Assembly: GCA_028412835.1 (NCBI GenBank)
Contig: JAONQW010000007.1
Span: 1 to 47,185 of the forward strand
Direction of reading: 5' to 3'
DNA length: 47,185 nucleotides
Source: Candidatus Pelagibacterales bacterium
GTDB taxonomy: Bacteria; Pseudomonadota; Alphaproteobacteria; Pelagibacterales; AG-422-B15
Below the pieces are notes generated by a model that was not told where the DNA came from, searched no databases, and was given only the letters and a program-made list of their open reading frames with translations. A program made the position numbers and the translations under genes. Shown one piece after another: positions 3,099 to 45,139 of the stretch; position 1 is the stretch's first letter; each line of letters begins with the position of its first letter.

Positions 3099-4271
3099 AT
3101 GACAGATGTATTTATCACAGCAGCCAATAGAACTGGCGTAGGTTCATTTAGTGGATCTTTAAGTAGCCTGCAAGCTCATGACTTAGGCAAAATAGTAATA
3201 GAGGACACACTGAAAAAATCTTCAGTACAACCAGATGAGGTTGATGAAGTTATACTTGGTCAAGTTCTTACAGCGGGTACAGGACAAAATCCTGCTAGAC
3301 AAGCTTCAGTAAATGCAGGCATTGCAAAAGAAACACCCGCATGGATTGTTAACCAGGTATGTGGTTCTGGCCTAAGAACAGTTGCTTTGGGATTTCAAGC
3401 TATAAAAAATCAAGATGCAAATATTATTATAGCCGGGGGTCAAGAAAGTATGAGTCAATCTCCACATTGTATGCATTTGCGATCAGGCACTAAGATGGGT
3501 GATTCAAAAATGATTGATACGATGATAAAAGATGGTTTATGGGATGCATTTAATGGATATCATATGGGTACAACTGCAGAAAATGTTGCGGAAAAATTTC
3601 AAATAACAAGAGAGCAACAAGATGAATTTGCTTATAACTCTCAGCTTAAAGCAAGTAAAGCGAAAGCGGCAGGCTTATTTAAAGACGAAATTACTCCAGT
3701 TGAAATAGTATCAAGAAAAGAGACTACTATTTTTGATCAAGATGAATATATAAAAGATAATGTTCAATTGGAAAAACTTGCATCTTTAAGGCCAGCGTTT
3801 TCAAAAGAGGGTTCTGTTACAGCTGCAAATGCTAGTGGAATTAATGATGGGGCCGCGGCTCTCACTTTAATGAGTGAAAAAGAACTAACAAAAAGAAATA
3901 TTGAGCCTATGGCAAAAATCGTATCTTGGGCAAGTGTTGGTGTAGACCCTTCTATTATGGGAACAGGACCAATTCCATCAGTAAGAAAAGCATTAGATAA
4001 AGCAGGGTGGTCTATAAATGACTTAGACTTAATCGAATCAAATGAGGCATTTGCTGCTCAAGGCTGTGCTGTAAATAAAGATTTAGGCTGGGATACAAGC
4101 AAGGTTAATGTTAATGGTGGCGCTATAGCTATTGGACATCCTATAGGAGCATCAGGCGCAAGAATCCTTGTTACATTACTTCATCAAATGAAAAGACAAG
4201 ATGCAAAAAAAGGTCTAGCGACACTATGCATAGGTGGTGGTATGGGTATTGCACTTTGTGTAGAAAGATAA
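3099..4271 (+). CDS. phaA: Acetyl-CoA C-acetyltransferase (beta-ketothiolase)
   Basis: Condenses two acetyl-CoA to acetoacetyl-CoA, or cleaves it. The 390 residues show all thiolase landmarks: nucleophile Cys88 in NQVCGSGLR, His347 in AIGHPIGASGAR, and the acid/base Cys377 in TLCIGGGMG close to the C-terminus. A purine-rich site (TTAGGATT) precedes the ATG. It is followed 16 nt later by phaB, the classic pair. No PHA synthase is in the window, but ccr, ecm and mcm are, so a role as entry to the ethylmalonyl-CoA pathway is likely in addition to or instead of polyhydroxybutyrate synthesis. AtoB-type degradation is the alternative. Confidence 0.93.
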   Translation: MTDVFITAANRTGVGSFSGSLSSLQAHDLGKIVIEDTLKKSSVQPDEVDEVILGQVLTAGTGQNPARQASVNAGIAKETPAWIVNQVCGSGLRTVALGFQAIKNQDANIIIAGGQESMSQSPHCMHLRSGTKMGDSKMIDTMIKDGLWDAFNGYHMGTTAENVAEKFQITREQQDEFAYNSQLKASKAKAAGLFKDEITPVEIVSRKETTIFDQDEYIKDNVQLEKLASLRPAFSKEGSVTAANASGINDGAAALTLMSEKELTKRNIEPMAKIVSWASVGVDPSIMGTGPIPSVRKALDKAGWSINDLDLIESNEAFAAQGCAVNKDLGWDTSKVNVNGGAIAIGHPIGASGARILVTLLHQMKRQDAKKGLATLCIGGGMGIALCVER

Positions 4272-4287
4272 TAATAGGAGAAAAAAT

Positions 4288-5010
4288 ATGACAAAAATAG
4301 CTTTAGTAACAGGTGGAACAAGAGGAATTGGTGGTGCAATATCAATTGCTTTGAAAAATCAAGGATGTAAAGTTGCTGCAACATATAATTCAAATTCAGA
4401 GAAAGCAGATGCTTTTGCCAAAGAACACGGAATTGATGTTTTTCAATGGAATGTTGCAGATGCAAATGCATGTGAAGCAGGCGTTAAAGAAGTTGCTGAA
4501 AAATTAGGTTCTATTGACATACTTATTAATAATGCTGGAATTTCTAAAGCAGCAATGTCACATAAGATGACTATTGAACAGTGGGATGACGTTATTAGAA
4601 CTGATTTAGATTCAGTATTTTATATGACAAGGTGTGTACTAGAAGGCATGAGAGAAAAGGCGTTTGGTAGAATAATTTCAATCTCATCAATTAATGGTCA
4701 AAAAGGTGAGATGGGACTCGTGAACTATAGCGCTGCAAAAGCGGGAGTACTTGGCTTTACAAAGGCTTTAGCACAAGAAACTGCTAGAAAAAATATTACT
4801 GTTAACGCGATTGCGCCTGGTTATATAGACACTGAAATTTTAGCTGATGCATCAGAAGATTTTCTGAAAGGTTTGATAACCAAGATACCTGTAGGGCGCT
4901 TAGGCACAGTTGAGGAAATATCTAGAATTGTAACTTTTTTAGCAAGTGATGATGCTGGATTTGTAACTGGATCAACTATTACTGCTAATGGTGGCCAATA
5001 CTTTATCTAA
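4288..5010 (+). CDS. phaB: Acetoacetyl-CoA reductase (short-chain dehydrogenase)
   Basis: Reduces acetoacetyl-CoA to (R)-3-hydroxybutyryl-CoA with NADPH. The 240-residue SDR has the cofactor motif GGTRGIGGAI at the N-terminus, NNAG near residue 84, and the catalytic Ser-Tyr-Lys set: Ser in SISSING, then Tyr147 and Lys151 in NYSAAK. A good ribosome site (AGGAGAAA) lies 7 nt before the ATG. Pairing with phaA separates it from FabG, which it resembles. Its 3' end overlaps the convergent gloB by 4 nt. Confidence 0.92.
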   Translation: MTKIALVTGGTRGIGGAISIALKNQGCKVAATYNSNSEKADAFAKEHGIDVFQWNVADANACEAGVKEVAEKLGSIDILINNAGISKAAMSHKMTIEQWDDVIRTDLDSVFYMTRCVLEGMREKAFGRIISISSINGQKGEMGLVNYSAAKAGVLGFTKALAQETARKNITVNAIAPGYIDTEILADASEDFLKGLITKIPVGRLGTVEEISRIVTFLASDDAGFVTGSTITANGGQYFI

Positions 5011-17303: not shown

Positions 17304-17867
17304 TTAAGTGTTTTGGCCGGGTTTCCATAAGACATCTTTTTTACCATTTCCATTTTCAACTCTTGATAAAACAAAGAATAAATCAGATAATCTATTAACG
17401 TAAGTCATTGAAAATACATTTATTTTTTCTTTTGAATTTAGCTCAACTATTAAGCTTTCCGCACGACGTGTTACTGTACGTGCATTGTGTAAATATGACG
17501 CACTAATTGATCCTCCAGGTAAAATAAATGAATTTAAACTCGAGAGAGGTTTATTGAACTGATCTATAGTAGATTCTAATCTCTTTACCTGTTTTTCAGT
17601 AACTCTTAATGGAGGAAATTTTGGAGATTTTGTAATTGGGTTTGCAAGATCTGCACCAAGATCAAATAGATCATTTTGAATTTCAGCTATTACTTTAATC
17701 AATCTTTTAGAGACATGATGTTTTACAACCCCAAGAATAGAATTTAATTCATCAACAGTTCCGTAAGCTCTAATTCTAATATTATCTTTAGAGACCCTTT
17801 TTCCTGAGACTAAGCTGGTCTTACCTTTGTCACCAGTTTTTGTATAAATTCTTGTTAACTTTACCAT
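17304..17867 (-). CDS. Cob(I)alamin adenosyltransferase, PduO type
   Basis: Transfers adenosyl from ATP to cob(I)alamin, making adenosylcobalamin. The 187 residues carry the PduO signatures TRIYTKTGDKGKTSL (ATP binding, N-terminus), RIRAYGTVDELNS and the helix with ARTVTRRAESL. Its product is the cofactor of the two mutases in this window, Ecm and Mcm, so its place in the ccr-mcd transcript makes metabolic sense. It starts 2 nt after the HIG1-like gene. Whether it also serves de novo B12 synthesis (CobO role) is unclear. Confidence 0.92.
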   Translation of the reverse strand: MVKLTRIYTKTGDKGKTSLVSGKRVSKDNIRIRAYGTVDELNSILGVVKHHVSKRLIKVIAEIQNDLFDLGADLANPITKSPKFPPLRVTEKQVKRLESTIDQFNKPLSSLNSFILPGGSISASYLHNARTVTRRAESLIVELNSKEKINVFSMTYVNRLSDLFFVLSRVENGNGKKDVLWKPGQNT

Positions 17868-17869
17868 TT

Positions 17870-18070
17870 TTATTCAGATGCAATATATAAAGCAATCATA
17901 ATGATTACTATAGCTAAGAATTGAAGCAAGATTCTTAAACGCATTAATTTATTAGAGTATTGTTTATTAAACTTTCCACCCCTTAACATTCCAAATATAC
18001 CAGTGAACAGAACCATAGTTACTGCAGCGATAGTAACTGGTATTAGTATATAATAAAATACAGTTGGCAT
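17870..18070 (-). CDS. HIG1-domain twin-transmembrane protein
   Basis: 66 residues with two membrane segments (about 5-28 and 45-63) joined by a basic loop containing FNKQYSNKLMRLRI, the hallmark of the alphaproteobacterial HIG1/twin-transmembrane proteins. Mitochondrial homologues associate with respiratory complexes; the bacterial role is not settled. The start overlaps the mcd stop by one base and the stop is 2 nt before the PduO gene. From memory, the order HIG1-PduO-etfB-etfA recurs in alphaproteobacteria, so the gene is genuine despite its size. Confidence 0.82.
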   Translation of the reverse strand: MPTVFYYILIPVTIAAVTMVLFTGIFGMLRGGKFNKQYSNKLMRLRILLQFLAIVIIMIALYIASE

Positions 18071-19716
18071 TAGTTTGAAGTAAGTAATCTTCGAGCTATA
18101 ACATCAGCTTGCATTTCTGCAGCACCTTCAAAAATATTTAAGATTCTTGAGTCACATAGAAGTCTACTAATTGGATATTCTAATGCAAAGCCGTTCCCAC
18201 CATGAATTTGTAAAGAGTTGTCTGAAGTTGCCCACGCTACTCTAGCACCTAGAAGTTTTGCCATCCCTGCCTCTAAATCACATCTATTACCTTTATCTTT
18301 TTCTCTTGCAGAAAAGTAAGTAAGTTGTCTTGCGGCCATTATTTCAGTTACCATTGAGGTAACTTTTGATGAAACTCTCGGAAATTCATATATTGATTTG
18401 CCAAATTGATTTCTATCAAGAGCATATTGCATACCAGTTTCCATTGCCGATTGAGCTACACCAACTGCCCTTGCAGCTGTTTGAATTCTAGCAGACTCAA
18501 AAGTTTCCATTAATTGTTTGAAACCTTTTCCTTCTTCACCACCAAGGAGATTTTCACCTTTGACTTTAAAATCATCAAATGCAATTTCATATTCCTTCAT
18601 TCCTCTGTAGCCAAGAACTTCTATTTCACCACCAGACATACCTTCACTAGGGAACATATTGTCGTCATCTCCTCGCTCTTTTTCAGCTAAAAACATTGAT
18701 AGTCCTTTATATCCTTTTTCATCTGGAACAGATCTTGCCATTAGCGTCATTAGATCACTACGCGCCCCATGTGTAATCCAAGTTTTATTTCCAGTTATTG
18801 AATATTCATCTCCATTTTTAACTGCACGAGTTTTAAGTGAAGCTAAATCAGAGCCAGTATTAGGCTCAGAAAAAACAGCAGCAGGAAGTATTTCACCAGA
18901 GGCAATTTTTGGAAGCCACTTTTTCTTTTGTTCTTCAGTTCCACCAATTAATAACAACTCTGAAGAAATATCAGTTCTAGTTCCTAGGGATCCAATGCCG
19001 ATGTAGCCACGCGCAAGCTCTTCAGTTACCACACACATAGAAAGCTTATTCATTCCAAGACCACCGTATTCCTCGGGTATAGTTAGTCCAAAAATACCTA
19101 AGTCGGCCATCTTGTTAATAACGTCCATTGGAATCAATTCATCTTTTAGATGCCATTCATGTGCATATGGAGCCACATCATCTTCAACAAATTTTTTAAA
19201 CTCTTGAATAATCATTGTAGAGGTATCATCAAGACCTAAGTTACCAAAGTTTTTGCTTGAAAAATTATGTTGTAATATGTCAGCAAGCTTTAATCTATCA
19301 GCAGCTTCATTACCATTAAGCATCAGATCTTTAACAGAGCTAGTCGATAGCTCTGTTAATAAACCATTTTTTAACCCAAGATCTTGAGGCCTAGCATATT
19401 CCAATTGTGACATAGGAATACCATGCCATAATTGAGTTAAGTATTCTGAGAATGCAAACTGCAATATAAGCTGTTCTGTTTCTAGAAAGTTATTTTCACT
19501 TTCAAGTCTTTCTGCCCAATTTAATAATTCAGTAAGAGTAGCTTTATAGGTTGCTATCCAAGCTAAGCTATGAGCTGCGTGCTGCTCTTTAGCCATTAGT
19601 TGTTTAGATACTGTACCATCGTCCATCACAAGCTTTTTAACTTGCTCTTTAGCTGCGTCAGTATACCTGTTGATAGACTCTAAAGAATCTCTACACTTAA
19701 TTAATAAATTATCCAT
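18070..19716 (-). CDS. mcd: Methylsuccinyl-CoA dehydrogenase (acyl-CoA dehydrogenase family)
   Basis: FAD enzyme expected to oxidise (2S)-methylsuccinyl-CoA to mesaconyl-CoA in the ethylmalonyl-CoA pathway. The 548 residues are an acyl-CoA dehydrogenase with an extra N-terminal helical region of about 160 residues, as in known Mcd proteins. The core has FGLTIPEEYGGLG, FSEPNTGSDLASLKT, GNKTWITHG and the catalytic glutamate Glu530 in FEGAAEMQ. It begins 5 nt after the ccr stop. The assignment over a generic long-chain enzyme rests on the N-terminal extension plus ccr and ecm next door. Electrons should go to EtfAB of the same operon. Confidence 0.88.
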   Translation of the reverse strand: MDNLLIKCRDSLESINRYTDAAKEQVKKLVMDDGTVSKQLMAKEQHAAHSLAWIATYKATLTELLNWAERLESENNFLETEQLILQFAFSEYLTQLWHGIPMSQLEYARPQDLGLKNGLLTELSTSSVKDLMLNGNEAADRLKLADILQHNFSSKNFGNLGLDDTSTMIIQEFKKFVEDDVAPYAHEWHLKDELIPMDVINKMADLGIFGLTIPEEYGGLGMNKLSMCVVTEELARGYIGIGSLGTRTDISSELLLIGGTEEQKKKWLPKIASGEILPAAVFSEPNTGSDLASLKTRAVKNGDEYSITGNKTWITHGARSDLMTLMARSVPDEKGYKGLSMFLAEKERGDDDNMFPSEGMSGGEIEVLGYRGMKEYEIAFDDFKVKGENLLGGEEGKGFKQLMETFESARIQTAARAVGVAQSAMETGMQYALDRNQFGKSIYEFPRVSSKVTSMVTEIMAARQLTYFSAREKDKGNRCDLEAGMAKLLGARVAWATSDNSLQIHGGNGFALEYPISRLLCDSRILNIFEGAAEMQADVIARRLLTSN

Positions 19717-19721
19717 TATAT

Positions 19722-20963
19722 TTATTCTTCCTTGATTGTTTTTAATCCTTCTTCAAGAGCGCCAACTAGAACTGCCATATTCCCAGCTTTGTGCTCATTA
19801 TTAAACATTTTTTCATGAGCAAAAGGAATTTTATCCCATTCAAAAACCTCTGACATACATGGATCAATAGCACCATCTAATACTAGATTATTTGCTGCAT
19901 GAGCTTGTTTTGAGTTTCCAAAATGTGAACCTTGAAGTCTTTTACTGTGCATCCATAAATACCTTGCATCAAGAGTAAGATTATAACCTGTAGTACCAGC
20001 ACATATAACGACCATACCACCTCTTTTGACTATAAACATAGAAACGGGAACTGTTGTTTCCCCAGGATGTTCAAATACCATATCAACGTTTTTGCCTTTG
20101 CCAGTAAATTCCCATAACGCTTTTCCAAATTTTCTAACTTCCTTCATATAATTACCATATGCTTCTGCATCATCGATATCAGGATGCTCACCCCAACAAT
20201 TAAAGTCTTTTCTATTTAGAACTCCAACTGCTCCAAGGCTTTTTACATATTCAGCTTTTGAATTATCTGAAATTATTCCAATAGGTTTAGCACCAACAGT
20301 TTTTGCTAATTGGACTGCAAAACTTCCAAGCCCACCAGAGGCGCCCCAGATTAAAACATACTGACCTGGTTTTAGCTCATGTGGAGCATGACCAAATAAC
20401 ATTCTATATGCAGTAACAAGAGTTAAGTTATAACAGCCACTTTCTTCCCAAGATAATTGGGGTGGCTTTTTCATTAACTGATGCGCTTGCACAGCAGTAA
20501 ACTGAGCAAAGGTACCGTCGGCAGTTTCATATCCAAACACTTTATTAGTTTCAGATAGCATTGGCTCTCCACCATTAACTTCGACATCCTCATGATCCCA
20601 TGTCATTGCATGAACAACAATTTCATCTCCAACTTTCCATTTTTTTACATCTGAACCAACCTTCCATACAATTCCAGAAGCATCAGATCCAGCTATGTGA
20701 TAATCTTTTTTTGTTACATCAAGAACAGAAATTGGCTTTCCAAGACCAGCCCAAACTCCATTGTAATTTACACCCGCTGCCATAACAAAAACCAACACAT
20801 CATTAGGTCCAATCTCAGGAACATCAAATTCTTCTGCTTGGAAAGATTGCATTGGATTACCATGCCTATCTTTTCTGATTACCCACGCGTGCATTTTTTT
20901 TGGAACAAATCCAAGAGGTGGAACCTCACCGATTGGATAAATATCTTTTTCTTCAGTAGTCAT
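19722..20963 (-). CDS. ccr: Crotonyl-CoA carboxylase/reductase
   Basis: NADPH-dependent reductive carboxylation of crotonyl-CoA to ethylmalonyl-CoA, the key CO2-fixing step of the pathway. The 413-residue MDR enzyme has AGSDASGIVWKVG near 91-103, GASGGLGSFAVQLAK for NADPH, and the regions tied to CO2 binding in studied Ccr enzymes: NYN (66-68), GYET (144-147) and GSHFGN near 355. These distinguish it from plain enoyl-thioester reductases. A strong ribosome site (AGGAG) lies 9-10 nt before the ATG. It is divergent from ecm across a 188-bp region holding a tandem duplication. Confidence 0.95.
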   Translation of the reverse strand: MTTEEKDIYPIGEVPPLGFVPKKMHAWVIRKDRHGNPMQSFQAEEFDVPEIGPNDVLVFVMAAGVNYNGVWAGLGKPISVLDVTKKDYHIAGSDASGIVWKVGSDVKKWKVGDEIVVHAMTWDHEDVEVNGGEPMLSETNKVFGYETADGTFAQFTAVQAHQLMKKPPQLSWEESGCYNLTLVTAYRMLFGHAPHELKPGQYVLIWGASGGLGSFAVQLAKTVGAKPIGIISDNSKAEYVKSLGAVGVLNRKDFNCWGEHPDIDDAEAYGNYMKEVRKFGKALWEFTGKGKNVDMVFEHPGETTVPVSMFIVKRGGMVVICAGTTGYNLTLDARYLWMHSKRLQGSHFGNSKQAHAANNLVLDGAIDPCMSEVFEWDKIPFAHEKMFNNEHKAGNMAVLVGALEEGLKTIKEE

Positions 20964-21012
20964 TATCTTGTCTCCTAATATGAAATTTATTCGAAATATA
21001 GCCTAATTTAAT

Positions 21013-21108
21013 CTTTTTTCTAGGCTTATAGCCAGTTTGAAAATAAATTTATATACAGTTCTTTTTTCTCGGTTTATAGCCAGTTTGTTGTTATTAATAT
21101 ATGAAGTA
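21013..21108. repeat. 48-bp tandem duplication in the ccr/ecm intergenic region
   Basis: Unit 1 is 21013-21060 and unit 2 is 21061-21108. The first 27 bases of each agree at 25 positions and share TTATAGCCAGTTTG. The last 21 bases agree less well (about half), but keep a TATAT-x-x-AGT core. Unit 1 contains the interrupted palindrome GGCT-TAT-AGCC, and unit 2 a one-mismatch version. The conserved part of unit 2 ends on the candidate ecm -35, so these look like paired operator sites for a regulator of ccr and ecm. Confidence 0.75.
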
Positions 21109-21151: not shown

Positions 21152-23119
21152 ATGACTGATAAACCCTGGTTAATCCGTACATATGCAGGACACTCAACTG
21201 CAAAAAAGTCTAATGAGCTATATCTTAACAACCTTTCTAAAGGACAGACGGGATTATCCATAGCTTTTGATTTACCCACACAGACTGGCTATGACAGTGA
21301 CCATGTACTTGCAAGTGGCGAAGTTGGAAAAGTAGGCGTTCCAATAAGTCATATAGGAGATATGAGAACTTTATTAAATCAAATCCCCTTAGATCAAATG
21401 AATACTTCAATGACTATCAATTCTACAGCTGCTTGGTTATTAAGTCTGTATATTGCTTTAGCTGATGAGCAGAATATTGATCGCAATAAATTACAAGGCA
21501 CAACTCAAAACGATATAATTAAGGAATACCTTTCTAGAGGCACCCATGTCTTTCCTCCAGCACCAAGCCTTAGACTTATATCTGATATGATTACATTTAC
21601 TTACACAGAACTACCAAAATGGAATCCAGTAAATATATGTTCTTATCATTTACAAGAAGTGGGTGCTAAGCCTGTTCAAGAACTAGCATTTGCATTATCA
21701 ACTGCCGTTGCATATTTGGATAGAGTTAAAGAGTCTGGTGTACTTTCATCAGATGAATTTGAAAATGTTGTTGGTCGAATAAGTTTCTTTGTTAATTCAG
21801 GAATTAAATTTATCACTGAAATGTGCAAAATGAGGGCATTTGTTGATTTATGGGATGAGATTACTAGTAAACGATATAAAGTTAAGAATCCAAAAAATAG
21901 AAGATTTAGATATGGCGTTCAAGTGAATAGCTTGGGTTTAACGGAGCAACAACCAGAAAATAACGTATACCGAATTCTAATTGAAATGATGGCAGTGGTT
22001 CTATCAAAAGATGCTCGAGCTAGAGCTGTTCAACTTCCAGCGTGGAATGAAGCACTAGGATTACCTCGACCATGGGATCAACAGTGGTCATTAAGACTTC
22101 AACAAATTTTAGCTTATGAAACTGATCTTCTTGAATTTGAAGATCTATTTAATGGATCTAAAGTTGTAGAAGAGAAGGTTGAACAGATGAAAGCTGAAGC
22201 AAGAAAAGAATTTGATCATATTCAATCAATGGGGGGAGCAGTTGCAGGCATTGAAAATAGCTACCTAAAACAAGAATTAGTCAATTCAAACAAAGAAAGA
22301 ATTCAGAATATTAATGATGGTGAACAAATAGTAGTTGGAGTAAATAAATTTATAGAAACTGAAAATTCACCATTAACGGCAAACGACAGTGGGATTGAAA
22401 GTATTGACTCTGGAGTTGAAGCAGAGCAAATCAAGGCTTTAAATGAATGGCGTAAAAATCGTGATCAATCACTAGTTGATAAATCTCTAGCTAATTTAAA
22501 GTTAGCTGCAGAGTCAGATACCAATATAATGCATGCTTCTGTAGAAGCTGCAAAAGCTGGAGTTACAACTGGCGAATGGACTAATGTGATGCGAGAAGTA
22601 TTTGGAGAATTTAGAGCTCCTACTGGCATTACTCAAAATTTAAAAACCACAACAAATAATGACTATTTAGAGATTAAAAAAAGAGTTGATGCACTATCAA
22701 ATAAGACTGGTAGAAGAATAAAGTTTTTAGTTGGTAAGCCCGGTTTAGATGGTCATTCAAGTGGAGCTGAGCAAATTGCTGTAAGCGCTAGTGATTGTGG
22801 AATGGATGTATTGTACGAGGGAATTAGATTAACGCCCCAACAAATTGTTAAGTCTTCAGTTGAAGAAGACGTTCATATTATAGGTTTATCGATTTTATCT
22901 GGATCTCACATACAGCTTGTTGGAGAAATAATGTCTGAATTAAAGAAAAATAAAATTGATAATATTCCACTTATTGTTGGTGGAATAATACCTATAGAGG
23001 ATGAAAAAATATTAAAATCACAAGGTGTTACGGCGGTCTATACGCCTAAGGACTATCAATTAAAAGATATTATGGCAGACATAGTTAGTATTGTTGAAAA
23101 AAATATTAGCTTAAATTAA
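21152..23119 (+). CDS. ecm: Ethylmalonyl-CoA mutase
   Basis: Adenosylcobalamin-dependent mutase converting (2R)-ethylmalonyl-CoA to methylsuccinyl-CoA. The 655 residues combine the acyl-CoA mutase barrel (RTYAGHSTA and FDLPTQTGYDSDH near the N-terminus) with a C-terminal B12 domain, whose GLDGHSSG supplies the axial ligand His535. It lacks the roughly 60 N-terminal residues of the Mcm in this window and has NSLGLTEQQPENN where Mcm has [17 protein letters not shown], as expected for the Ecm clade. Divergent placement from ccr-mcd confirms the pathway. The esterase gene follows 2 nt later. Confidence 0.94.
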   Translation: MTDKPWLIRTYAGHSTAKKSNELYLNNLSKGQTGLSIAFDLPTQTGYDSDHVLASGEVGKVGVPISHIGDMRTLLNQIPLDQMNTSMTINSTAAWLLSLYIALADEQNIDRNKLQGTTQNDIIKEYLSRGTHVFPPAPSLRLISDMITFTYTELPKWNPVNICSYHLQEVGAKPVQELAFALSTAVAYLDRVKESGVLSSDEFENVVGRISFFVNSGIKFITEMCKMRAFVDLWDEITSKRYKVKNPKNRRFRYGVQVNSLGLTEQQPENNVYRILIEMMAVVLSKDARARAVQLPAWNEALGLPRPWDQQWSLRLQQILAYETDLLEFEDLFNGSKVVEEKVEQMKAEARKEFDHIQSMGGAVAGIENSYLKQELVNSNKERIQNINDGEQIVVGVNKFIETENSPLTANDSGIESIDSGVEAEQIKALNEWRKNRDQSLVDKSLANLKLAAESDTNIMHASVEAAKAGVTTGEWTNVMREVFGEFRAPTGITQNLKTTTNNDYLEIKKRVDALSNKTGRRIKFLVGKPGLDGHSSGAEQIAVSASDCGMDVLYEGIRLTPQQIVKSSVEEDVHIIGLSILSGSHIQLVGEIMSELKKNKIDNIPLIVGGIIPIEDEKILKSQGVTAVYTPKDYQLKDIMADIVSIVEKNISLN

Positions 23120-32690: not shown

Positions 32691-33536
32691 TTATTGAAAG
32701 TGACTATCAATATATGATTTCATTTTATTCATAGCATTTTTTTCAATCTGTCTAACTCTTTCTTTTGAAATTTTTAGTTTTTTACCCAAGTACTCTAATG
32801 TTTTAGGGTCTTCTGAAAGATGTCTTTCATTAATAATTTGAGTTTCTCTATCATCTAATGAGTCTATTGCACTGTTGACCATAGTCTTTTTATGATCAAT
32901 TTCATCTTTCGCAAATATAATGTTATCAGGTCTAGCATTTTCATCTTCTAGTAGTGATAAAAACTCATCTTCACCATCTTCACTTATTTTTTTATTTAAA
33001 GAACTATCATTTTGCGTAATACGACTATCCATATTAACTACTGCAGAAGTAGATATATTTAAATCACTGGCAATATTTTCAGCAGTATTGAAATCAATGT
33101 TCCCATTTTCATTTCCATTTATTTTTTGCTTTAAGCGTCTTAAACTAAAAAATAGACTTTTTTGTTTTGAAGTTGTTGCAATTCTTACTATTGACCAATG
33201 CTTTAATAAAAAATCTTGAATTGAAGCTCTTATCCACCAACTTGCATAAGTTGAGAACCTAAAACCTTTATCTGGCTCAAATTTTTGAGCTGCTTTCATT
33301 AGCCCAATATTACCTTCTTGAATTAAATCATTAAGACTTAAGCCGTAGTTTTTATATTTAACTGCATAAGATACTACCAATCTCATATGGGCTTGTATCA
33401 ATTCGTGAAGAGCATTTTCGTCGTTTTTATCTTTCCATTTATTTGCAAGATTAAGCTCATGCTTTTCTTCTAGTAAAGGAAGTGACATTGCCTTTTTGAC
33501 GAAACTTTTACTATCGTTATCAATAAAATTATTCAT
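32691..33536 (-). CDS. rpoH: RNA polymerase heat-shock sigma factor (sigma-32)
   Basis: 281-residue group 3 sigma factor. Region 2 includes DLIQEGNIGLMKAAQKFEP and FRFSTYASWWIRASI (67-106). The RpoH box QKSLFFSLRR (125-134) identifies it as sigma-32 rather than RpoD. Region 4 helix-turn-helix is TLEYLGKKLKISKERVRQIE near the C-terminus. It should direct heat-shock genes. The leader contains a strong inverted repeat 10 nt before the ATG. It is divergent from phr and convergent with lhgO. Confidence 0.95.
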   Translation of the reverse strand: MNNFIDNDSKSFVKKAMSLPLLEEKHELNLANKWKDKNDENALHELIQAHMRLVVSYAVKYKNYGLSLNDLIQEGNIGLMKAAQKFEPDKGFRFSTYASWWIRASIQDFLLKHWSIVRIATTSKQKSLFFSLRRLKQKINGNENGNIDFNTAENIASDLNISTSAVVNMDSRITQNDSSLNKKISEDGEDEFLSLLEDENARPDNIIFAKDEIDHKKTMVNSAIDSLDDRETQIINERHLSEDPKTLEYLGKKLKISKERVRQIEKNAMNKMKSYIDSHFQ

Positions 33537-36101: not shown

Positions 36102-36135
36102 TGCGCTCTTAGTTAAATAGCTAAGGGCGTATTTT
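36102..36135 (+). terminator. Terminator between the H1-like gene and carD
   Basis: TGCGCTCTTAG (36102-36112) pairs with CTAAGGGCGTA (36121-36131) over 11 bp, two of them G-U in RNA, followed by TTTTCTATTTT. It starts 26 nt after the H1-like stop. The stem spans the carD stop codon (36115-36113) on the opposite strand. There it is weaker (two A-C mismatches) but is followed by TTTCTTT, so it may serve both convergent genes. Confidence 0.75.
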
Positions 36136-37051
36136 CTATTTTGTCACGCCCAAGAAGTTTATCCACTTTCTTTTTTCCAGCCTCATCTGTGATTTTTAAA
36201 CTCACAATAATTTCCCTTAATAACCTCCCGTAAGCTAGTTCAAACAGCTGTCTCTCACTGTAAGATTGTTCTGCCTGGCTATCTGCTCTGTTTAGATCTC
36301 TTACGACTTCTGCTATTTGTTCTATTTCACCAGAGTTAATCTTTTGATCATATTCTTGAGCTCTTCTGCTCCACATAGTTCTTTTTATTTTTGCTTTTTC
36401 AGTGAGTATCTTAAAAATAGTTTGTATTTTACCAGGCCTAGAAACTTTCCTTAAATTATTAAGTTTTGTTTTATCAACTGGCACTCTTACTAACATATCC
36501 ATATTAGGAAATTCTATTACATACATCTCTAATTTTTGCCCAACCACTTCTCTTTTTTCAATATCTATAACTTGCCCTACACCATGAGTTGGGTAGACAA
36601 CATAGTCTTTTGTACTGAAGATCTTTTTAACTTTTTTTTCTTTAATATCCTTAATTTCAAGAACTTTTTTAGTTTTTTTAGATTGCCAATGACTTGGGTT
36701 TAGATGGTTTCTTTTGTGTTGTATACCTGGCAAAGAAACTATTCTTTTTTTCTTTATAACTTTTTCTATAGTTTCCTTCTTCTTTGCTACCTTTTTCTTA
36801 GCAACCTTCTTCTTAGCTACCTTCTTCTTAGCTACCTTCTTCTTAGCTACCTTTTTCTTAGCAACTTTCTTCTTAGCAACCTTCTTCTTTGCTACTTTTT
36901 TCTTTGTAGCTGTTTTCTTAGCTATTTTCTTTTTTACAACATTTTTTTTTGTAATTGTTTTCTTAGCAGTTTTCTTTTTTATAACTGCTTTCTTAGCTAC
37001 CTTTTTTTTAACAACTTTTTTTATTACCTTAGTCATCTTTGCTTTTTTCAT
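36113..37051 (-). CDS. carD: CarD/CdnL-family RNA polymerase-binding protein with N-terminal H1-like lysine tail
   Basis: 312 residues in two parts. Residues 1-103 contain 54 lysines, with eight consecutive VAKKK units at 53-92. A linker follows, then from about 144 a standard CarD/CdnL protein: [22 protein letters not shown] (RNA polymerase beta-binding Tudor-like domain) and a helical DNA-binding part with [14 protein letters not shown] and [14 protein letters not shown]. CarD stabilises promoter open complexes, especially at rRNA promoters. Usual alphaproteobacterial CdnL is about 170 residues, so the tail is an addition. A GAGGT ribosome site precedes the ATG. It follows fdxA by 14 nt. 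Confidence 0.9.
36776..36905 (-). repeat. 15-bp coding tandem repeat in carD
   Basis: Eight near-identical 15-bp units encode VAKKK. On the plus strand they read as GCTACCTTCTTCTTA variants. Third-position differences between units show that selection keeps the peptide, while the DNA has drifted. The array is a likely site of slippage and of copy-number change between strains. Confidence 0.88.
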
Positions 37052-38009: not shown

Positions 38010-40157
38010 ATGAAAAAAGATAAAAGCAAAAGACTTAGTGATTGGGAAAAAAAATTTTCTAAAGAAGTAAAAATCGAGACTTCTAAAGAGTTCTTCCATG
38101 AAACTGATGAAGGTATTAATATTAATCCTCTGTATACACAGGAAGATTTATTGGATTACACCTTCAATGATATTCAAACTCTTCCAGGCGAATGGCCATA
38201 TACTCGTGGTCCAAAAGCATCCATGTATACAAATAGGCCCTGGACAATTAGACAGTATGCTGGTTTTTCTACCGCAGAAGAATCAAATAAATTTTATAGA
38301 AAAAATTTAGAAGCTGGACAAATGGGGCTCTCAGTTGCTTTTGATCTGCCTACTCACAGAGGCTATGATTCAGATGATGAATTGGTAATGGGAGATGTTG
38401 GTAAAGCTGGTGTAGCAATTGATAGTGTAGAAGACATGAAAATTTTATTTGATGGTATCCCATTAGATAAAATGTCAGTTTCAATGACTATGAATGGTGC
38501 AGTTCTCCCAGTTCTTGCAGCGTTTATTGTAGCTGGTGAGGAACAAGGTCTTGATAGAAAAGTTTTATCGGGAACAATTCAAAATGATATCTTAAAAGAA
38601 TTCATGGTTCGTAATACTTATATCTACCCACCAGAGCCATCTATGAGATTGGTAGCAGATATAATTGCATATACCGCAAAAGAGATGCCAAAATTTAATT
38701 CTATTTCTATATCAGGATATCATATGCAAGAGGCAGGTGCTAACAATGTTCAAGAACTAGCTTTTACATTAGCTGATGGCATGGAGTATGTTAGAGCAGC
38801 ATTATCTAAAGGGCTGGCTGTTGATGATTTCGCACCAAGGCTTTCATTCTTTTTTGCGATTGGTACAGATTTTTTTATGGAAATAGCAAAACTTAGAGCC
38901 GCTAGAACGTTGTGGGCTAAAATTATGCAAGATTTTGGAGCAACGAATGAGAAGTCTCTAACTTTAAGAACACACTGTCAAACTTCAGGAGTTTCTTTGA
39001 CTGAAAAAGATCCCTACAACAATATTGTAAGAACCTCTTATGAGGCCTTATCAGCTGTGTTGGGAGGAACACAAAGTCTTCACACAAATTCTTTTGACGA
39101 AGCAATTGCTCTACCTACTGAGTTTTCATCAAGAATTGCAAGAAATACTCAGTTGATACTTCAAAATGAAACAGGGGTAACAAACACCGTTGACCCATTA
39201 GCAGGATCTTACTTTGTTGAAAAATTAACTGAAGATATATGTTCTGCAGCCTGGAAAATTATTGAGGAAGTTGAAGAATTAGGTGGAATGACTAAAGCTG
39301 TTGCAGCTGGTATGCCAAAATTAAGTATTGAAGAGTCAGCTACTAAGAAACAGGCAAAAATTGATAGTGGTAAACAGGTAGTGGTTGGGGTGAATAAGTT
39401 TAAAAACCCTAAAGAACCTAAAATTGATGTGTTAGTTATAGACAATGAAAAAGTACGAGAAGATCAAATAACAAAAATTTCTACTTTAAAAAAAGATAGA
39501 GATGATAAAATTCTTAAGGGTCATCTAAATAAAATTACTGAGGCTGCAAAAGACAATACCGGCAACCTATTAGCTTTAAGCATTGAGGCAATGCGAGCTC
39601 GAGGTACTGTGGGTGAAGTTTCAAAAGCACTTGAAGATGCTTTTGGTCGACACTATGCTACAAATGTAGGTGTATCAGGTGTCTATGGAAAGTTTTTTGA
39701 GAAAGATGAAAAATTTATGGATATACAAAATAAAATTAATATTTTCGAAAAAGAGAAGGGAAGAAGGCCAAGAGTTCTAATTGTTAAAATGGGACAAGAT
39801 GGTCATGATAGAGGCGCAAAAATTGTTGCAACTTCATTTGCTGACTTAGGCTTTGATATTGATATGGGTCCATTATTTCAATCTCCAAAGGACGTTGCAA
39901 AAGATGCAATTGAAAATGATGTACATGCTATTGGTGTATCAACACTTGCTGCGGGCCATAAAACTTTAGTACCAGAATTAATGAAAAGCCTTAATGCAAT
40001 TGATAAGAATAATAAGATAGTTGTTTTTGTTGGAGGAGTAATACCTGAACAAGATTATCAATTTTTATATGACAATAATATTTCAGCAATTTTTGGTCCA
40101 GGAACAAGTATTCTAGACTCTGCTGAAAAAGTAATCGAACTTATTTCAAAAAAATAG
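38010..40157 (+). CDS. mcm: Methylmalonyl-CoA mutase (single-chain)
   Basis: Adenosylcobalamin enzyme interconverting (R)-methylmalonyl-CoA and succinyl-CoA. The 715 residues hold an N-terminal extension, the substrate barrel ([44 protein letters not shown] with the catalytic histidine) and the C-terminal B12 domain with QDGHDRG, where His599 is the cobalt ligand. The one-chain, roughly 720-residue form is usual in alphaproteobacteria. It completes the ethylmalonyl-CoA route to succinyl-CoA and also serves propionyl-CoA use. meaB follows 17 nt later. Confidence 0.95.
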
Positions 40158-40174
40158 TAAATGATTTAATTTTT

Positions 40175-41146
40175 ATGATGAAACTTAGGGATAGGATTAT
40201 AGCAGGAGAAAGAGCAGCGATCGCAAAGGCTATTACTCTTGTAGAATCCTCGAGAGAAGAAGACATCATTCAAAGTCATGAATTAATCTCTGAACTTATA
40301 AAGTCACCTGGTCATGCCATAAGAGTTGGTTTTTCAGGTCCACCAGGCGTAGGCAAATCTACATTTATTGAATCATTTGGCTCATATATAGTTAATAAAA
40401 ATTTTAAGTTAGGGGTACTTGCTATTGATCCCTCTTCAAATTTTACTGGTGGGTCTATCTTAGGTGATAAAACTCGTATGAGTGAAATTTCTAAAAATGA
40501 AAACACTTTTATTCGCTCTACTCCATCGAGAGGTTCTTTGGGAGGCATAGCTGTAGGAACTCGTGAAGCGGCAATAATTTTAGATGCAGCAGGTTATGAC
40601 TATATCTTTATTGAGACAGTGGGTGTTGGACAGTCAGAAATTACAGCTGCAAATCTAGTAGATATATTTACATTAATTGTTGGACCAGGATCTGGTGATG
40701 AACTTCAAGGAATTAAAAAAGGTATTACAGAATATGCTGATATCTTCATAGTTAATAAAAATGATGGCGACTTAGCTTCTCAAGCATCAAAAACAGCCTC
40801 TGATTATAAATCTGCTTTAAGCTTTTATAATAAAGATAGTGATGCACTAGAAACACAGGTGGTATTAGTTTCTTCCATTGAAAACAAAGGTATGGATGAA
40901 GTATTAGATTCTTACAATAAAATTGTAAATGTGAATAAGGCTAACAATCAATTTGATAAGAGAAGAGAAAATCAGTTAGCATACTGGCTCGAGGAAGAGG
41001 TTAGAAACAAGATCTTACTTAAACTCAGAAGTGAAAAGGAAACTTCAGAATTACTAGAACGCGAAGTTCGAAGGATTATTGTTGGAGAGACTGGATTTTA
41101 TGCAGCCTCTAAGGTAATTATTGATAGATTTCTTAGCAAAAAATAA
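40175..41146 (+). CDS. meaB: Mutase-protecting G-protein chaperone MeaB
   Basis: GTPase that guards methylmalonyl-CoA mutase and gates adenosylcobalamin loading. The 323 residues contain the Walker A GPPGVGKST (near 51-59), DPSSNFTGGSILGDKTRM, ETVGVGQSE and the guanine-specificity motif NKND. This is the MeaB/ArgK family of the SIMIBI class. The start is ATGATG, so the second ATG (40178) is equally possible. Direct linkage to mcm supports the assignment; it may also serve Ecm, since no second copy is nearby. Confidence 0.95.
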   Translation: MMKLRDRIIAGERAAIAKAITLVESSREEDIIQSHELISELIKSPGHAIRVGFSGPPGVGKSTFIESFGSYIVNKNFKLGVLAIDPSSNFTGGSILGDKTRMSEISKNENTFIRSTPSRGSLGGIAVGTREAAIILDAAGYDYIFIETVGVGQSEITAANLVDIFTLIVGPGSGDELQGIKKGITEYADIFIVNKNDGDLASQASKTASDYKSALSFYNKDSDALETQVVLVSSIENKGMDEVLDSYNKIVNVNKANNQFDKRRENQLAYWLEEEVRNKILLKLRSEKETSELLEREVRRIIVGETGFYAASKVIIDRFLSKK

Positions 41147-41153
41147 GTAAATA

Positions 41154-41182
41154 TTGACATATTCGTTTACAATCATTAATAC
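41154..41182 (+). promoter_or_regulatory. Candidate rpmB promoter
   Basis: TTGACA (41154-41159), 17 nt, TAATAC (41177-41182). The -35 is perfect and the -10 mediocre. Transcription would begin within a few bases of the rpmB ATG at 41192, implying a leaderless or nearly leaderless mRNA, consistent with the lack of a ribosome site there. Confidence 0.4.
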
Positions 41183-41191
41183 ACTTCATCT

Positions 41192-41479
41192 ATGACAAGA
41201 GCATGCGATTTAACGGGAAAAAAAGTACAATTTGGCCATAACGTAAGTAAAGCTAACAATAAGACTAAACGTAAATTTATTCCAAATATTCAATCTGTAA
41301 CATTTAGAAGTGAAATTCTTAATAAAAATGTAAGGTTATCTGTAGCCGCCTCCTCAATTAGAACTGTAGCAAAGTACGGAAGTATTGATGACTATTTATT
41401 AAAAGTAAAAAGTAATAAGCTTTCTCCAAAAGCAAAAGTCGTCAAAAAAAGCTTATTAAAAAAAACTGCATCTACTTAA
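41192..41479 (+). CDS. rpmB: 50S ribosomal protein L28
   Basis: 95 residues of the large-subunit protein L28. The start MTRACDLTGKKVQFGHNVSKANNKTKRKF is diagnostic and the rest (FIPNIQSVTF, LSVAASSIRTV) is complete, with a lysine-rich tail of about 20 residues. It lies between meaB and cobT (convergent, 3-nt gap). A location next to cobT/cobS recurs in alphaproteobacteria, as far as I recall. No Shine-Dalgarno site is visible before the ATG. Confidence 0.95.
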   Translation: MTRACDLTGKKVQFGHNVSKANNKTKRKFIPNIQSVTFRSEILNKNVRLSVAASSIRTVAKYGSIDDYLLKVKSNKLSPKAKVVKKSLLKKTAST

Positions 41480-41482
41480 AAA

Positions 41483-43312
41483 CTAATTTAAAATATCTCT
41501 TTTCTTTAGAGGAAACTCTTCAAATAGATCCACTAGCTGTTCCGTCATAACATCTGCTAATTGTTCAGCGTCTACAATCGTAACAGCTTTTTTGTAATAC
41601 CTAGTAACATCATGTCCAATACCAACCGCTAGAAGTTGAACATCGGATTTATTTTCAATCCAGTTAATTGCACCCCTTAAATGTTTTTCAAGATAATTAC
41701 CTGAATTTACAGATAATGTACTATCATCTACTGGAGCTCCATCGGAAATTACCATAAGTATTTTTCTAGCTTCATATCTATTCTGAAGGCGTTTGTGTGC
41801 CCATAATAAAGCCTCACCATCAATGTTTTCTTTTAGCAAACCTTCTCGCATCATCAAGCCAAGATTTTTTTTTGATCTTCTCCATGGTTCATCTGCAGCT
41901 TTATAAATGATGTGCCTTAAGTCATTTAATCTTCCAGGAGATGGAGGTTTATTATTTTGCATCCAGCTTTCTCTACTTTTTCCACCCTTCCAAGCTTTAG
42001 TTGTAAAACCAAGTATCTCAACTTTTACTCCACATTTTTCAAGAGTTCGCGTAAGGATATCGGCACTCATTGCCGCAACAGTAATTGGTCTGCCCCGCAT
42101 TGATCCAGAATTATCAATTAGCAATGATACAACTGTATCTTTAAAGTCAGTGTCTTTCTCTTTTTTAAATGAAAGTGAATAAAAGGGATCAGTTATAACT
42201 CTAGTGAGTCTTGATGTATCAAGTAGGCCTTCTTCAATATTAAATTCCCAACTTCGATTTTGTTTTGCCAATAATTTTCTTTGTAATCTATTAGCCAGAC
42301 GGGAGATTATTGTTTGGAAGGACTTTAATTGTTGATCTAAATATTTTCTTAATCTATTTAATTCCTCATCTTCACAAAGATCTTGAGCTGTAATAATTTC
42401 ATCATATTTATTTGAATAAACCATATACTCACTCAAAATAGTTTCTACAGATTTGCTCTCTTTATACTGAGGCTTAACATTTTCAGAGCCATCATCCTCC
42501 AGGTCTTGCATTTCTTCATTGTTTTCATCTACTGGCAATTCACTTTCTTCAGACTGAACTTCTTCCTCTGTATTTTCCATGTCATCGTCACTCATGGAAG
42601 ACTGACTTTCAGTTTCATCTATATCAGGATTATCTAATTCTTCAGTTTGCTGACCTTTATTATCATCTTCAGATTCATCTTTATTTTCGTTCGTATCATA
42701 AAGCTTAAGATCTGAAATTAGTTTATTGGTAAGTTTTGCAAATTTTTCTTGATTATCTACATTCTCTAATAAGTCATCAATTGAAGTTCCTACTTTTGAA
42801 TCTAGCCATTTACTCCAATATGATAGAGCGTGAGAAGCACTCTTAGGTACAATATTGGTATCAATTTTTTTCTTTAAGTAGATTTCTAAAGCATGCTCAA
42901 TTTCTAAATCTGACTGACTTGTTACATTTGAATAATTTTTTTCATTACAGTTTTTTTCATACAGACTTAAAAGATTAGATTTAACACCTCGCATATATTT
43001 ACTTCCTAGAATCTGAATACGTGTATTTTCTAAACTTTCATAAATCTTTTTATTTTTTTCTTTATTAGGTAAGAATTCACTGTATGTGTCATTATTTCTA
43101 TACTTATAGATCAAAGCTTCATTATCAGCTGCACCTCTAATTCTTGCTATATTATCTAGATCAAAAACATTATTTATTTCAGGTAGAATTATTTTTTCTT
43201 CAGAGGAAGTGGAGTTATTACCAAAAATAACTTCGATTTCTTTATCTTCTGCAATTGCTTTAACCGTTGAAGATAAAGCTCTTTTAAATGTATCTAGAGT
43301 ATCCTCTTTCAC
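41483..43312 (-). CDS. cobT: Cobaltochelatase subunit CobT
   Basis: Large chaperone-like subunit of the aerobic CobNST cobalt chelatase. The 609 residues have an N-terminal helical part, a very acidic low-complexity stretch (about 205-290), then a von Willebrand A domain with the MIDAS motif DNSGS at 400-404, [12 protein letters not shown] and [12 protein letters not shown]. The start is GTG at 43312, immediately after the cobS TAA, with no ATG nearby in frame. With CobS it inserts cobalt into hydrogenobyrinic acid diamide. CobN is not in the window, so full B12 synthesis cannot be judged. Confidence 0.93.
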
Positions 43313-44302
43313 TTAAGTAAGAGTTATATCTGATTGAATGTTCATAAGGTCTTCACCAAAACATCTTTGATAATATTCAGCAATTATAGGTTTTTCACTA
43401 TCATCACATTTATTTAAAAAAGTCAGCTGAAATGATAAAGCTATGTTGAAATCAAATATTTCTGCATTCTCAGCCCAAGTTAGTACAGTTCTTGGACTCA
43501 TAACTGTAGAAATATCTCCATTAACAAGACCTTTTCTTGAAAGGTCGGCGACTTTAATCATCAGTTCAATAGTTTCTTCTCTATCAGGTGTGTTATAATT
43601 TTTAACTTTAGAAAGTATGATTTCTTTTTCTTTTTTATTATCAAGATAATTTAATGCTGTAACAATGCTCCATCTATCCATTTGTCCTTGGTTAATTTGC
43701 TGAGTTCCATGGTACAGTCCACTTGTATCACCTAGGCCAACTGTATTAGTTGTTGCAAACAATCTAAAAGATGGATGTGGCTTAATCACTCTATTTTTAT
43801 CAAGCAAAGTAAATTTACCCTCAGACTCAAGAACTCGCTGAATGACAAACATAACATCTGGCCGACCAGCATCATATTCATCAAAAACTAAAGCTGTATT
43901 ATTCTGAATTGCCCATGGTAGAATCCCATCTTGAAATTCTGTTATCTGCTTTCCCTCTTTAAGAACTATGGCATCCTTACCAATTAAATCAATTCTACTA
44001 ACGTGACTATCAAGATTGACTCTAACACAAGGCCAATTAAGTCTTGCTGCAACTTGTTCTATGTGAGTTGATTTGCCTGTTCCATGAAATCCTTGAACCA
44101 TTACTCTTCTATTATATTTAAAGCCAGATAATATTGCCATTGTTGTTGCTTTATCAAAACAATAATTTGAATCAATTTCAGGAACATAAGCTGAGTTTTG
44201 AGAAAACCCATCTACATGAAGGTCTGTATCAATCCCAAACGCTTGATTAACAGAGATTGATATGTCTGGAGTAACTTGATTATTTTGACTTAAATCGCTC
44301 AT
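43313..44302 (-). CDS. cobS: Cobaltochelatase subunit CobS (AAA+ ATPase)
   Basis: MoxR-like AAA+ ATPase partner of CobT, 329 residues. The Walker A motif GFHGTGKST ends the segment around Lys77, and Walker B is ALVFDEYD with Asp141-Glu142. RLFATTNTVGLGDTSGLYHGT is the conserved sensor-1 region of CobS. The stop directly abuts the cobT start, and the first 23 nt overlap the end of the DnaJ-like gene, so the three form one tightly packed operon. Confidence 0.95.
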   Translation of the reverse strand: MSDLSQNNQVTPDISISVNQAFGIDTDLHVDGFSQNSAYVPEIDSNYCFDKATTMAILSGFKYNRRVMVQGFHGTGKSTHIEQVAARLNWPCVRVNLDSHVSRIDLIGKDAIVLKEGKQITEFQDGILPWAIQNNTALVFDEYDAGRPDVMFVIQRVLESEGKFTLLDKNRVIKPHPSFRLFATTNTVGLGDTSGLYHGTQQINQGQMDRWSIVTALNYLDNKKEKEIILSKVKNYNTPDREETIELMIKVADLSRKGLVNGDISTVMSPRTVLTWAENAEIFDFNIALSFQLTFLNKCDDSEKPIIAEYYQRCFGEDLMNIQSDITLT

Positions 44303-44810
44303 AATGATTTTTTATTATTTTATATGATTCTAAAACTTTTTTTAATTTTTCAATATTTTCTTCTTTGTAGCCAACAGTATCGGGATGTAATTGTTTAACA
44401 ATATCTTTAAATTTACTCTTTATTACTTCTAGCGGTGCATTTTTATCATTAATATTTAATTCAGCCAATGCATTAATATATTCACTTCCCATTAATGTAG
44501 AGCCAAATTCTATATTTCCAATATCGGTAAATGAATTAAATAAGTTTTCCCTAATTTTGTTAGTTTTATCAAAGTAATTGCTATTCGTAGCCCCTATTTT
44601 TTGGGTTTTTCTGTGACCAATAATGTCATTTTCAATAAAAGTCTCTATCTCATCAGCCGTCATGTTCTCAAAATAATTCCAATTTTTGTTATATTCTTTA
44701 ATATGAGTTAAACAAAACCATTGATATTCTCTTAGATTATCTGGAGAAATTGGTGCCTTATATTCTCCCAGAAGATTACAATCTGAACTGCTACATTTTT
44801 GGTGTGTCAT
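44280..44810 (-). CDS. DnaJ-domain protein upstream of cobS
   Basis: About 176 residues from the ATG at 44810. A longer frame to 44864 would run into bolA and lacks conserved sequence. The N-terminus has a cysteine-containing module (CSSSDCNLLGEYKAP, then YQWFCLTHIKEYNKNWNYF and a GHRKTQ segment) shared by alphaproteobacterial proteins in this position. The C-terminus is a J domain with the HPD motif in KQLHPDT, ending about 35 residues later. It probably recruits DnaK; the client is unknown. Only 29 bp separate its start from the divergent bolA. Confidence 0.85.
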   Translation of the reverse strand: MTHQKCSSSDCNLLGEYKAPISPDNLREYQWFCLTHIKEYNKNWNYFENMTADEIETFIENDIIGHRKTQKIGATNSNYFDKTNKIRENLFNSFTDIGNIEFGSTLMGSEYINALAELNINDKNAPLEVIKSKFKDIVKQLHPDTVGYKEENIEKLKKVLESYKIIKNHYERFKSK

Positions 44811-44839
44811 AATACAAAGAATACAATTAATATTAATTA

Positions 44840-45139
44840 ATGAATATTGATAATATAATAACAAAAAAAATAAAAGATAATATCGATCCTTTTTATTTTA
44901 GACTTATAAATTTCTCTGAACAACACAGTCATCATGCAACAAACAATAGAGGTGAGTACTCCCATATAAGACTTGTTATAGTGTCTGATATTTTTGAAAA
45001 TAAAAGTAAAGTAAATCGGGAAAGGCTAATTCACAAAGTACTTACTGAAGAATTAAAAGACCATGTTCATGCTCTTGTACTAAAACTTTATTCAATTAAT
45101 GAATTTAAATTATTGAGCACTCAAGACCTTGAGGAGTGA
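44840..45139 (+). CDS. bolA: BolA-family protein
   Basis: 99 residues. The BolA fold signatures are HSHHATNNRGEYSHIRLVIVSDIF in the first half, with the Fe-S-related histidines, and the helix plus strand RERLIHKVLTEELKDHVHALVLKLY. BolA proteins bind monothiol glutaredoxins and affect iron-sulfur homeostasis and stress responses. Divergent from the DnaJ-like gene, as in other alphaproteobacteria. The 3' end overlaps the convergent CorC/HlyC-like gene by 30 nt. Confidence 0.92.
   Translation: MNIDNIITKKIKDNIDPFYFRLINFSEQHSHHATNNRGEYSHIRLVIVSDIFENKSKVNRERLIHKVLTEELKDHVHALVLKLYSINEFKLLSTQDLEE

Follow-up and report, generated by a model that had tools for sequence, protein, structure and literature searches.

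In Methylobacterium extorquens, ccr is controlled by CcrR, a regulator of the TetR family. CcrR has been described to affect Ccr activity in this organism (PMC4207312). Members of the ScfR family (RamB, PccR and MccR) control acyl-CoA pathways and are described as having two near-identical boxes per control region, with a separation of 18 bp in the case of the class 2 RamB boxes (PMC10370305). PhaR sites are described as short palindromes near the promoters of acetyl-CoA and storage genes, which often overlap or flank the -35 element and are sometimes present twice per promoter (PMC6201568, PMC12542648). The footprinted PhaR consensus reported for Bradyrhizobium is TGCRNYGCASMA (PMC6201568), and the motif given for S. 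meliloti has the same core (PMC12542648). In the excerpts returned by a literature search for PhaR together with ethylmalonyl-CoA, no statement on PhaR control of the ethylmalonyl-CoA pathway was found.

Here we analyzed the region between ccr and ecm, two oppositely oriented genes of this acetate assimilation pathway, in a marine bacterium. The window, i.e., the whole stretch of DNA analyzed (47,185 nucleotides), is located on contig 34 of a 1.02 Mb genome that is 72% complete (G000). Among named contigs, the closest are three with the label uncultured Pelagibacteraceae, at 77-78% protein identity.

The ccr/ecm gap and its 48-bp repeat

The ccr gene (19722-20963, minus strand) encodes a crotonyl-CoA carboxylase/reductase (TIGR01751, 570.7 bits vs. 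a cut-off of 378.55). Located 3′ of it on the same strand is an acyl-CoA dehydrogenase gene (18070-19716), which from its position we take to be mcd (methylsuccinyl-CoA dehydrogenase); all its family matches are below the NCBIfam cut-offs. An acyl-CoA dehydrogenase gene is also found 3′ of ccr in many outgroup loci. On the plus strand, ecm (21152-23119, ethylmalonyl-CoA mutase) codes for a protein with N- and C-terminal acid-CoA mutase domains above cut-off. It scores 557.5 with the methylmalonyl-CoA mutase equivalog, below the cut-off of 876, which the gene at 38010-40157 passes (1190.3); the name ecm is given because the gene is linked to ccr. The same window contains a cobalamin adenosyltransferase gene (17304-17867) and a B12-linked neighbourhood with genes for methylmalonyl-CoA mutase, MeaB, CobT and CobS (38010-46378).

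The gap between ccr and ecm is 188 bp long and contains two 48-bp units arranged head to tail (21013-21060 and 21061-21108), which are identical at 25 of their first 27 bases, as originally predicted, and at 35 of 48 bases overall. A scan for direct repeats returned 28 nt (21012-21039 and 21060-21087) that are 93% identical at a spacing of 48. The repeat has 26 matches; the best repeat in 5,000 first-order Markov shuffles of the gap had 23, and none of the shuffles equalled the observed one, so that the predicted tandem duplication is real. The only other direct repeat of at least 24 nt within 300 bp in a 13-kb stretch around the site was a T-rich pair at 79% (14539/14806). Each unit consists of a T-tract, an imperfect palindrome, GGYTTATAGCC(A), and a TATAT box 15 nt further. 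In unit 1 (plus strand) these are located at 21013-21021, 21023-21033 (GGCTTATAGCC) and 21050-21057 (TATATACA), in unit 2 (plus strand) at 21061-21069, 21071-21081 (GGTTTATAGCC) and 21098-21105 (TATATGAA). The expected dyads were found in both units, as GGCT-TAT-AGCC in unit 1 and, with one symmetric pair worse, as GGTT-TAT-AGCC in unit 2; the palindrome is imperfect in that Y is opposite G and the central T/T is asymmetric. The genome-wide motif search proposed with the original prediction showed exact matches of TTATAGCCAGTTTG only at the two units, both in the window and in the 72% complete genome.

A palindrome of this kind could form a short stem, and the units might then belong to a structured RNA leader of ecm, either a riboswitch or a hairpin. 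The predicted folding energy of the gap is, however, average (z = 0.10; 103 of 200 shuffles fold as well), Rfam gave no match at the site (only a tRNA elsewhere), the unit is located upstream of the TATAT box, and no compensating changes were seen in the dyad in an alignment of 17 units. Because of the average folding energy and the missing Rfam match at the site we rejected an RNA leader, which we regard as extremely improbable. A phage origin was likewise rejected, since the 188-bp gap had no match in the phage collection.

Conservation of the unit and predicted promoters

Ecm (E <= 1e-200) is encoded in 42 of 53 genomes of the family and in 42 of the 397 genomes sampled from the order, all of them from the window's family. 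Wherever the region upstream of ecm is assembled, the unit is present between ccr and ecm (39 of 39 family genomes); the contigs of the other three ecm genomes (G015, G025 and G043) end at or inside the ecm start. None of the 11 genomes without ecm contains the unit, and no match there was better than E = 0.03. A 48-column model of the unit, built from the sequence only, found it in 39 of 53 genomes with 38.7-55.9 bits, always at ccr/ecm. The copy number is one in all 34 genomes of the sister genera (3/3 in g2 and 31/31 in g3) and two in all five genomes of the window's genus (g1), where the copies are always 48 bp apart. Accordingly sized gaps were read in all three ecm-bearing genera: 133-135 bp in g2 and g3, and 188-190 bp in g1 where parsed. 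Parsing covered 37 of 40 loci; those of G003, G050 and AG-337-E07 were missed by the ccr start pattern and could be read separately. Since every relative in which this place is assembled has the unit, and has it as a single copy outside g1, it is the unit that has been conserved, whereas its duplication occurred later, at the level of the genus. The comparison of relatives called for in the original prediction therefore favours a function, with the qualification that conservation holds for the unit and not for its duplication.

An alignment of 17 units from 14 genomes, picked to span the diversity, contains 20 invariant columns out of 48, and 9 out of 12 in the palindrome including the following A. 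Since a TATAT-like box was required for this alignment, unit 2 of G001 and unit 2 of G003 are omitted from it; both are included in a comparison of the five g1 genomes. There, the palindrome with its A has 11 of 12 invariant columns in unit 2 vs. 9 of 12 in unit 1, and the TATAT box has 6 of 8 in unit 1 vs. 3 of 8 in unit 2. At fourfold-degenerate sites of ecm, G000 and three genus mates are identical at fractions of 0.52, 0.42 and 0.40; 0 of 122 such sites are invariant in ten genomes from the three genera and 28 of 196 in four g1 genomes. These sites are thus saturated over the three genera and near saturation within g1. Unit 1 of G003 is partly decayed (GGTTAATAGGC), which shows that two intact copies are not strictly required.

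The repeat is tandem, AT-rich and confined to one genus, as would be the case for a recent duplication by slippage that is neutral and has no function. Against this, all five genomes retain it at identical spacing despite fourfold sites near saturation, and conservation of the single-copy unit extends across three genera, which makes neutral slippage very improbable. The unit is a cis-regulatory module under strong selection, with one copy in two genera and two copies in the genus of the window.

Exact matches of GGYTTATAGCCA in the 53 family genomes comprise those at ccr/ecm in 39 genomes and nine further places, all inside open reading frames. The next-best match of the unit model has 22.0 bits and is coding, compared with 38.7-55.9 bits at ccr/ecm. 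A regulon with multiple sites was therefore rejected, in agreement with the earlier remark that the motif had not been noticed near phaA, mcm or other pathway genes of the window: no comparably strong copy was found elsewhere in the family genomes searched. Allowing up to two mismatches, AGGYTTATAGCCA has 57 matches in the window's genome vs. 35 for the reversed pattern, a modest excess that makes weak further sites possible. Five other loci in this genome match with at most one mismatch; four are coding, and one (C31:66960), upstream of a gene for a substrate-binding protein, overlaps with the end of an ORF for a transporter. Six weaker matches of the model were inspected. L226, L229 and L230 are more or less strong and coding, and L232 (12.3 bits, in the window's genome) overlaps the end of a transporter ORF. 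A match of 12.9 bits that recurs in two genomes (L227/L228) has no GG half-site; it overlaps with the beginning of a gene that codes for a small membrane protein and is divergent from another gene. This match is also present in genomes without ecm. Among the matches listed, two weak ones that are partly non-coding were seen.

Where the unit is single, its palindrome starts at a distance of 50-52 nt from the start codon of ccr and of 83 nt from that of ecm. In g1, the palindrome of unit 1 is located 59-61 nt from the ccr start codon and that of unit 2 81 nt from the ecm start codon. The TATAT box follows 15 nt after the palindrome and its A in the single units, in g1 unit 1 and, where kept, in unit 2; in all three genera, the gap alignment shows a TATATAA/TATATTT box on the opposite strand, at 22 nt from the palindrome. 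The dyad is thus conserved at constant distance from both start codons and from both TATAT boxes of the predicted promoters. If the boxes are -10 elements, the palindrome would be located at approximately -40 for ccr and -36 for ecm, and g1 unit 2 at approximately +12 of the unit 1 ecm promoter. Transcription of the window's genes is accordingly predicted to start at approximately 20988 for ccr and at approximately 21064 and/or 21112 for ecm. A candidate core promoter for ccr (TAGAAA, 16 nt, TATATT; 20995-21022, minus strand) matches the consensus at 9 of 12 positions; the promoter scan returned one site vs. a mean of 1.3 in shuffled sequences and thus shows no enrichment. The spacing of 48 bp corresponds to approximately 4.6 helical turns and places the two copies on opposite faces of the helix, an arrangement that speaks against simple cooperation between them.

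From conservation alone, an operator is not separable from a promoter that is read by RNA polymerase only, and the unit could be such a core promoter. TAGCCA-N17-TATACA would then be the -35 and -10 elements of ecm, the mirrored strand would aid ccr, and the duplication would have generated tandem ecm promoters without a dedicated regulator. The 17-nt distance between these two hexamers, a weak -35/-10 pair, is found in g2, g3 and g1 unit 1, the TATAT box is part of the module, and no regulator is linked to it. However, the conserved block is a dyad and includes sequence upstream of the -35 element that would have to be assumed (T-tract and AGG), and the -10 element of ccr is too far away for the palindrome to be the ccr -35 element. 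In addition, the 12-mer is not common to other promoters, with exact non-coding matches only at ccr/ecm, and in the five g1 genomes unit 2 has kept the palindrome and its A (11/12) and poorly kept the TATAT box (3/8). We therefore consider it unlikely that the unit is a core promoter only.

Candidate regulators in the window and in the genus

The window contains 58 open reading frames of at least 90 amino acids, 56 of which were scanned for domains (eight of these against NCBIfam only). Three proteins related to transcription were seen, RpoH (32691-33536), a CarD-like protein (36113-37051) and BolA (44840-45139); the 56 scanned reading frames contained no other DNA-binding regulators, in agreement with the original statement that no regulator gene is located here. 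The first hundred residues of the CarD-like protein weakly match a histone-H1-like (HC2) repeat profile, below the cut-off.

The original prediction had pointed to CcrR. If the element were bound by a TetR activator similar to the CcrR of Methylobacterium, a fitting TetR gene should accompany it; CcrR does affect Ccr activity in M. extorquens (PMC4207312), and TetR_N was found in four of the five g1 genomes, with seven matches. Four of these are BetI-like proteins, one in each of four g1 genomes, encoded next to an oxidoreductase and an MFS gene (the copy of the window's genome has the BetI C-terminal domain; the other three were judged by eye). Two are encoded beside a fumarylacetoacetase-like gene (G000 and G001), and one, in G003, is of a third type. 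The TetR common to four genomes is thus BetI-like, only two of five g1 genomes contain the non-BetI type found in the window's genome, and G003, which is 98% complete and has the element, lacks this fumarylacetoacetase-adjacent TetR. In the five g1 genomes, several of which (G004 among them) are incomplete, no TetR type follows the element convincingly, and the scanned reading frames of the window include no TetR gene linked to the locus. The hint at CcrR is therefore not supported, and a CcrR-like activator is quite improbable.

The ScfR domain (PF09856) was not detected in any of the five g1 genomes, with positive controls in 2 of 14, and a ScfR/RamB regulator was therefore rejected.

The PhaR-type site of other alphaproteobacteria and a model for ccr/ecm

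For an outgroup we collected 77 loci with ecm from bacteria other than this family, most of which are alphaproteobacteria according to their titles. In 53 of them ccr is divergent from ecm within 1500 bp, which shows that this arrangement is widespread. In these 53 gaps the best matches to GGYTTATAGCCA reached 7-9 of 12 positions, nothing convincing. Motif statistics are based on the 41 gaps shorter than 520 bp, which are not independent (they include several from Roseibium, Thalassospira and Kiloniella and other near pairs). Unbiased counting of dyads in these gaps ranked TGCNNNGCA first, with 35 of 41 gaps vs. 6.0 expected. The PhaR core TGCRNYGCA is present in 33 of 41 gaps and the reversed motif in none; in 200 draws of equal-length coding pieces from the same loci the core was found on average in 1.55 and at most in five. 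PhaR (PF07879) is encoded in 39 of the 41 genomes: 32 have both site and PhaR, seven have PhaR without the site, one has the site without PhaR and one has neither. Seven of the eight gaps without TGCRNYGCA are thus from genomes with PhaR. Judging from their sequence, the outgroup sites presumably bind PhaR, which suggests that PhaR reads the PHB status into the expression of the ethylmalonyl-CoA pathway in many alphaproteobacteria. Wide PhaR control of this pathway would be a side result of this study.

In the window's family, PhaR was not detected in any of 53 genomes, 12 of which are at least 90% complete (a Caulobacter control was positive), and neither was the PHA synthase PhaC (0/53). The 37 parsed family gaps contain neither TGCRNYGCA nor TGCN3GCA, and the PhaR consensus is not matched. 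The window does contain thiolase and acetoacetyl-CoA reductase genes (phaA/phaB-like, 3099-5010), which in a family without detectable PhaC and PhaR presumably feed the ethylmalonyl-CoA pathway rather than PHB.

Taken together, the repeat is probably a genus-specific duplication of a conserved control module of ccr(-mcd)/ecm that contains a putative operator for a dimeric transcription factor in replacement of a PhaR-type site. Most likely, the module consists of a palindromic operator plus the ecm core promoter and stands where most outgroups have the PhaR-type site; binding by a protein, the promoter positions and the replacement of PhaR control are what we infer from the sequence comparisons. 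According to this model, the 11-bp imperfect palindrome GGYTTATAGCC would most likely bind a dimeric transcription factor, and the TATAT box of the module would be the -10 element of ecm. Ancestrally, a single operator would have been located between both promoters, at approximately -40 relative to ccr and covering the -35 region of ecm. In the duplicated form, the ccr-proximal copy would roughly keep the ancestral distance to ccr (59-61 vs. 50-52 nt) and the ecm-proximal copy that to ecm (81 vs. 83 nt). Since both ancestral distances are kept, each promoter may have obtained its own operator; alternatively, the unit 1 ecm promoter (predicted start at approximately 21064) may be flanked by two operators, at approximately -36 and +12. 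The module would stand in place of the PhaR-type site in a family without detectable PhaR or PHA synthase.

A more far-reaching scenario is put forward only tentatively. In a SAR11-like lineage, PHB storage may have been lost together with PhaR while the ethylmalonyl-CoA pathway was retained or newly acquired, and ccr/ecm may have been rewired to a new single-locus regulator with GGYTTATAGCC as putative operator. The 48-bp duplication in one genus might then have provided each promoter with a separate operator, so that ccr and ecm were no longer coupled. Such a regulator would be a sensor, so far unrecognised, of acetyl-CoA or an intermediate of the pathway in a very streamlined genome.

The locus would represent a dated example of how the regulation of a conserved divergent gene pair has turned over: the same divergent genes have a PhaR-type site in most outgroups and an unrelated site, which is strongly conserved, in a lineage that lacks PhaR. 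Compared with the described systems, the two near-identical boxes per control region resemble the arrangement of ScfR sites, but the period of the repeat is 48 bp here vs. 18 bp between class 2 RamB boxes. Dedicated control of ccr would be shared with the CcrR system of Methylobacterium extorquens, although no CcrR-like gene is linked to the ccr of the window. GGYTTATAGCC is unrelated to the PhaR operator TTGCRNYGCAA, and the family lacks both PhaR (0/53) and its site (0/37); like the operators of PhaR (AniA; PF07879/PF05233), however, it is a short palindromic site, and it is located in the same ccr/ecm gap that is occupied by PhaR-type sites in 33 of 41 outgroups.
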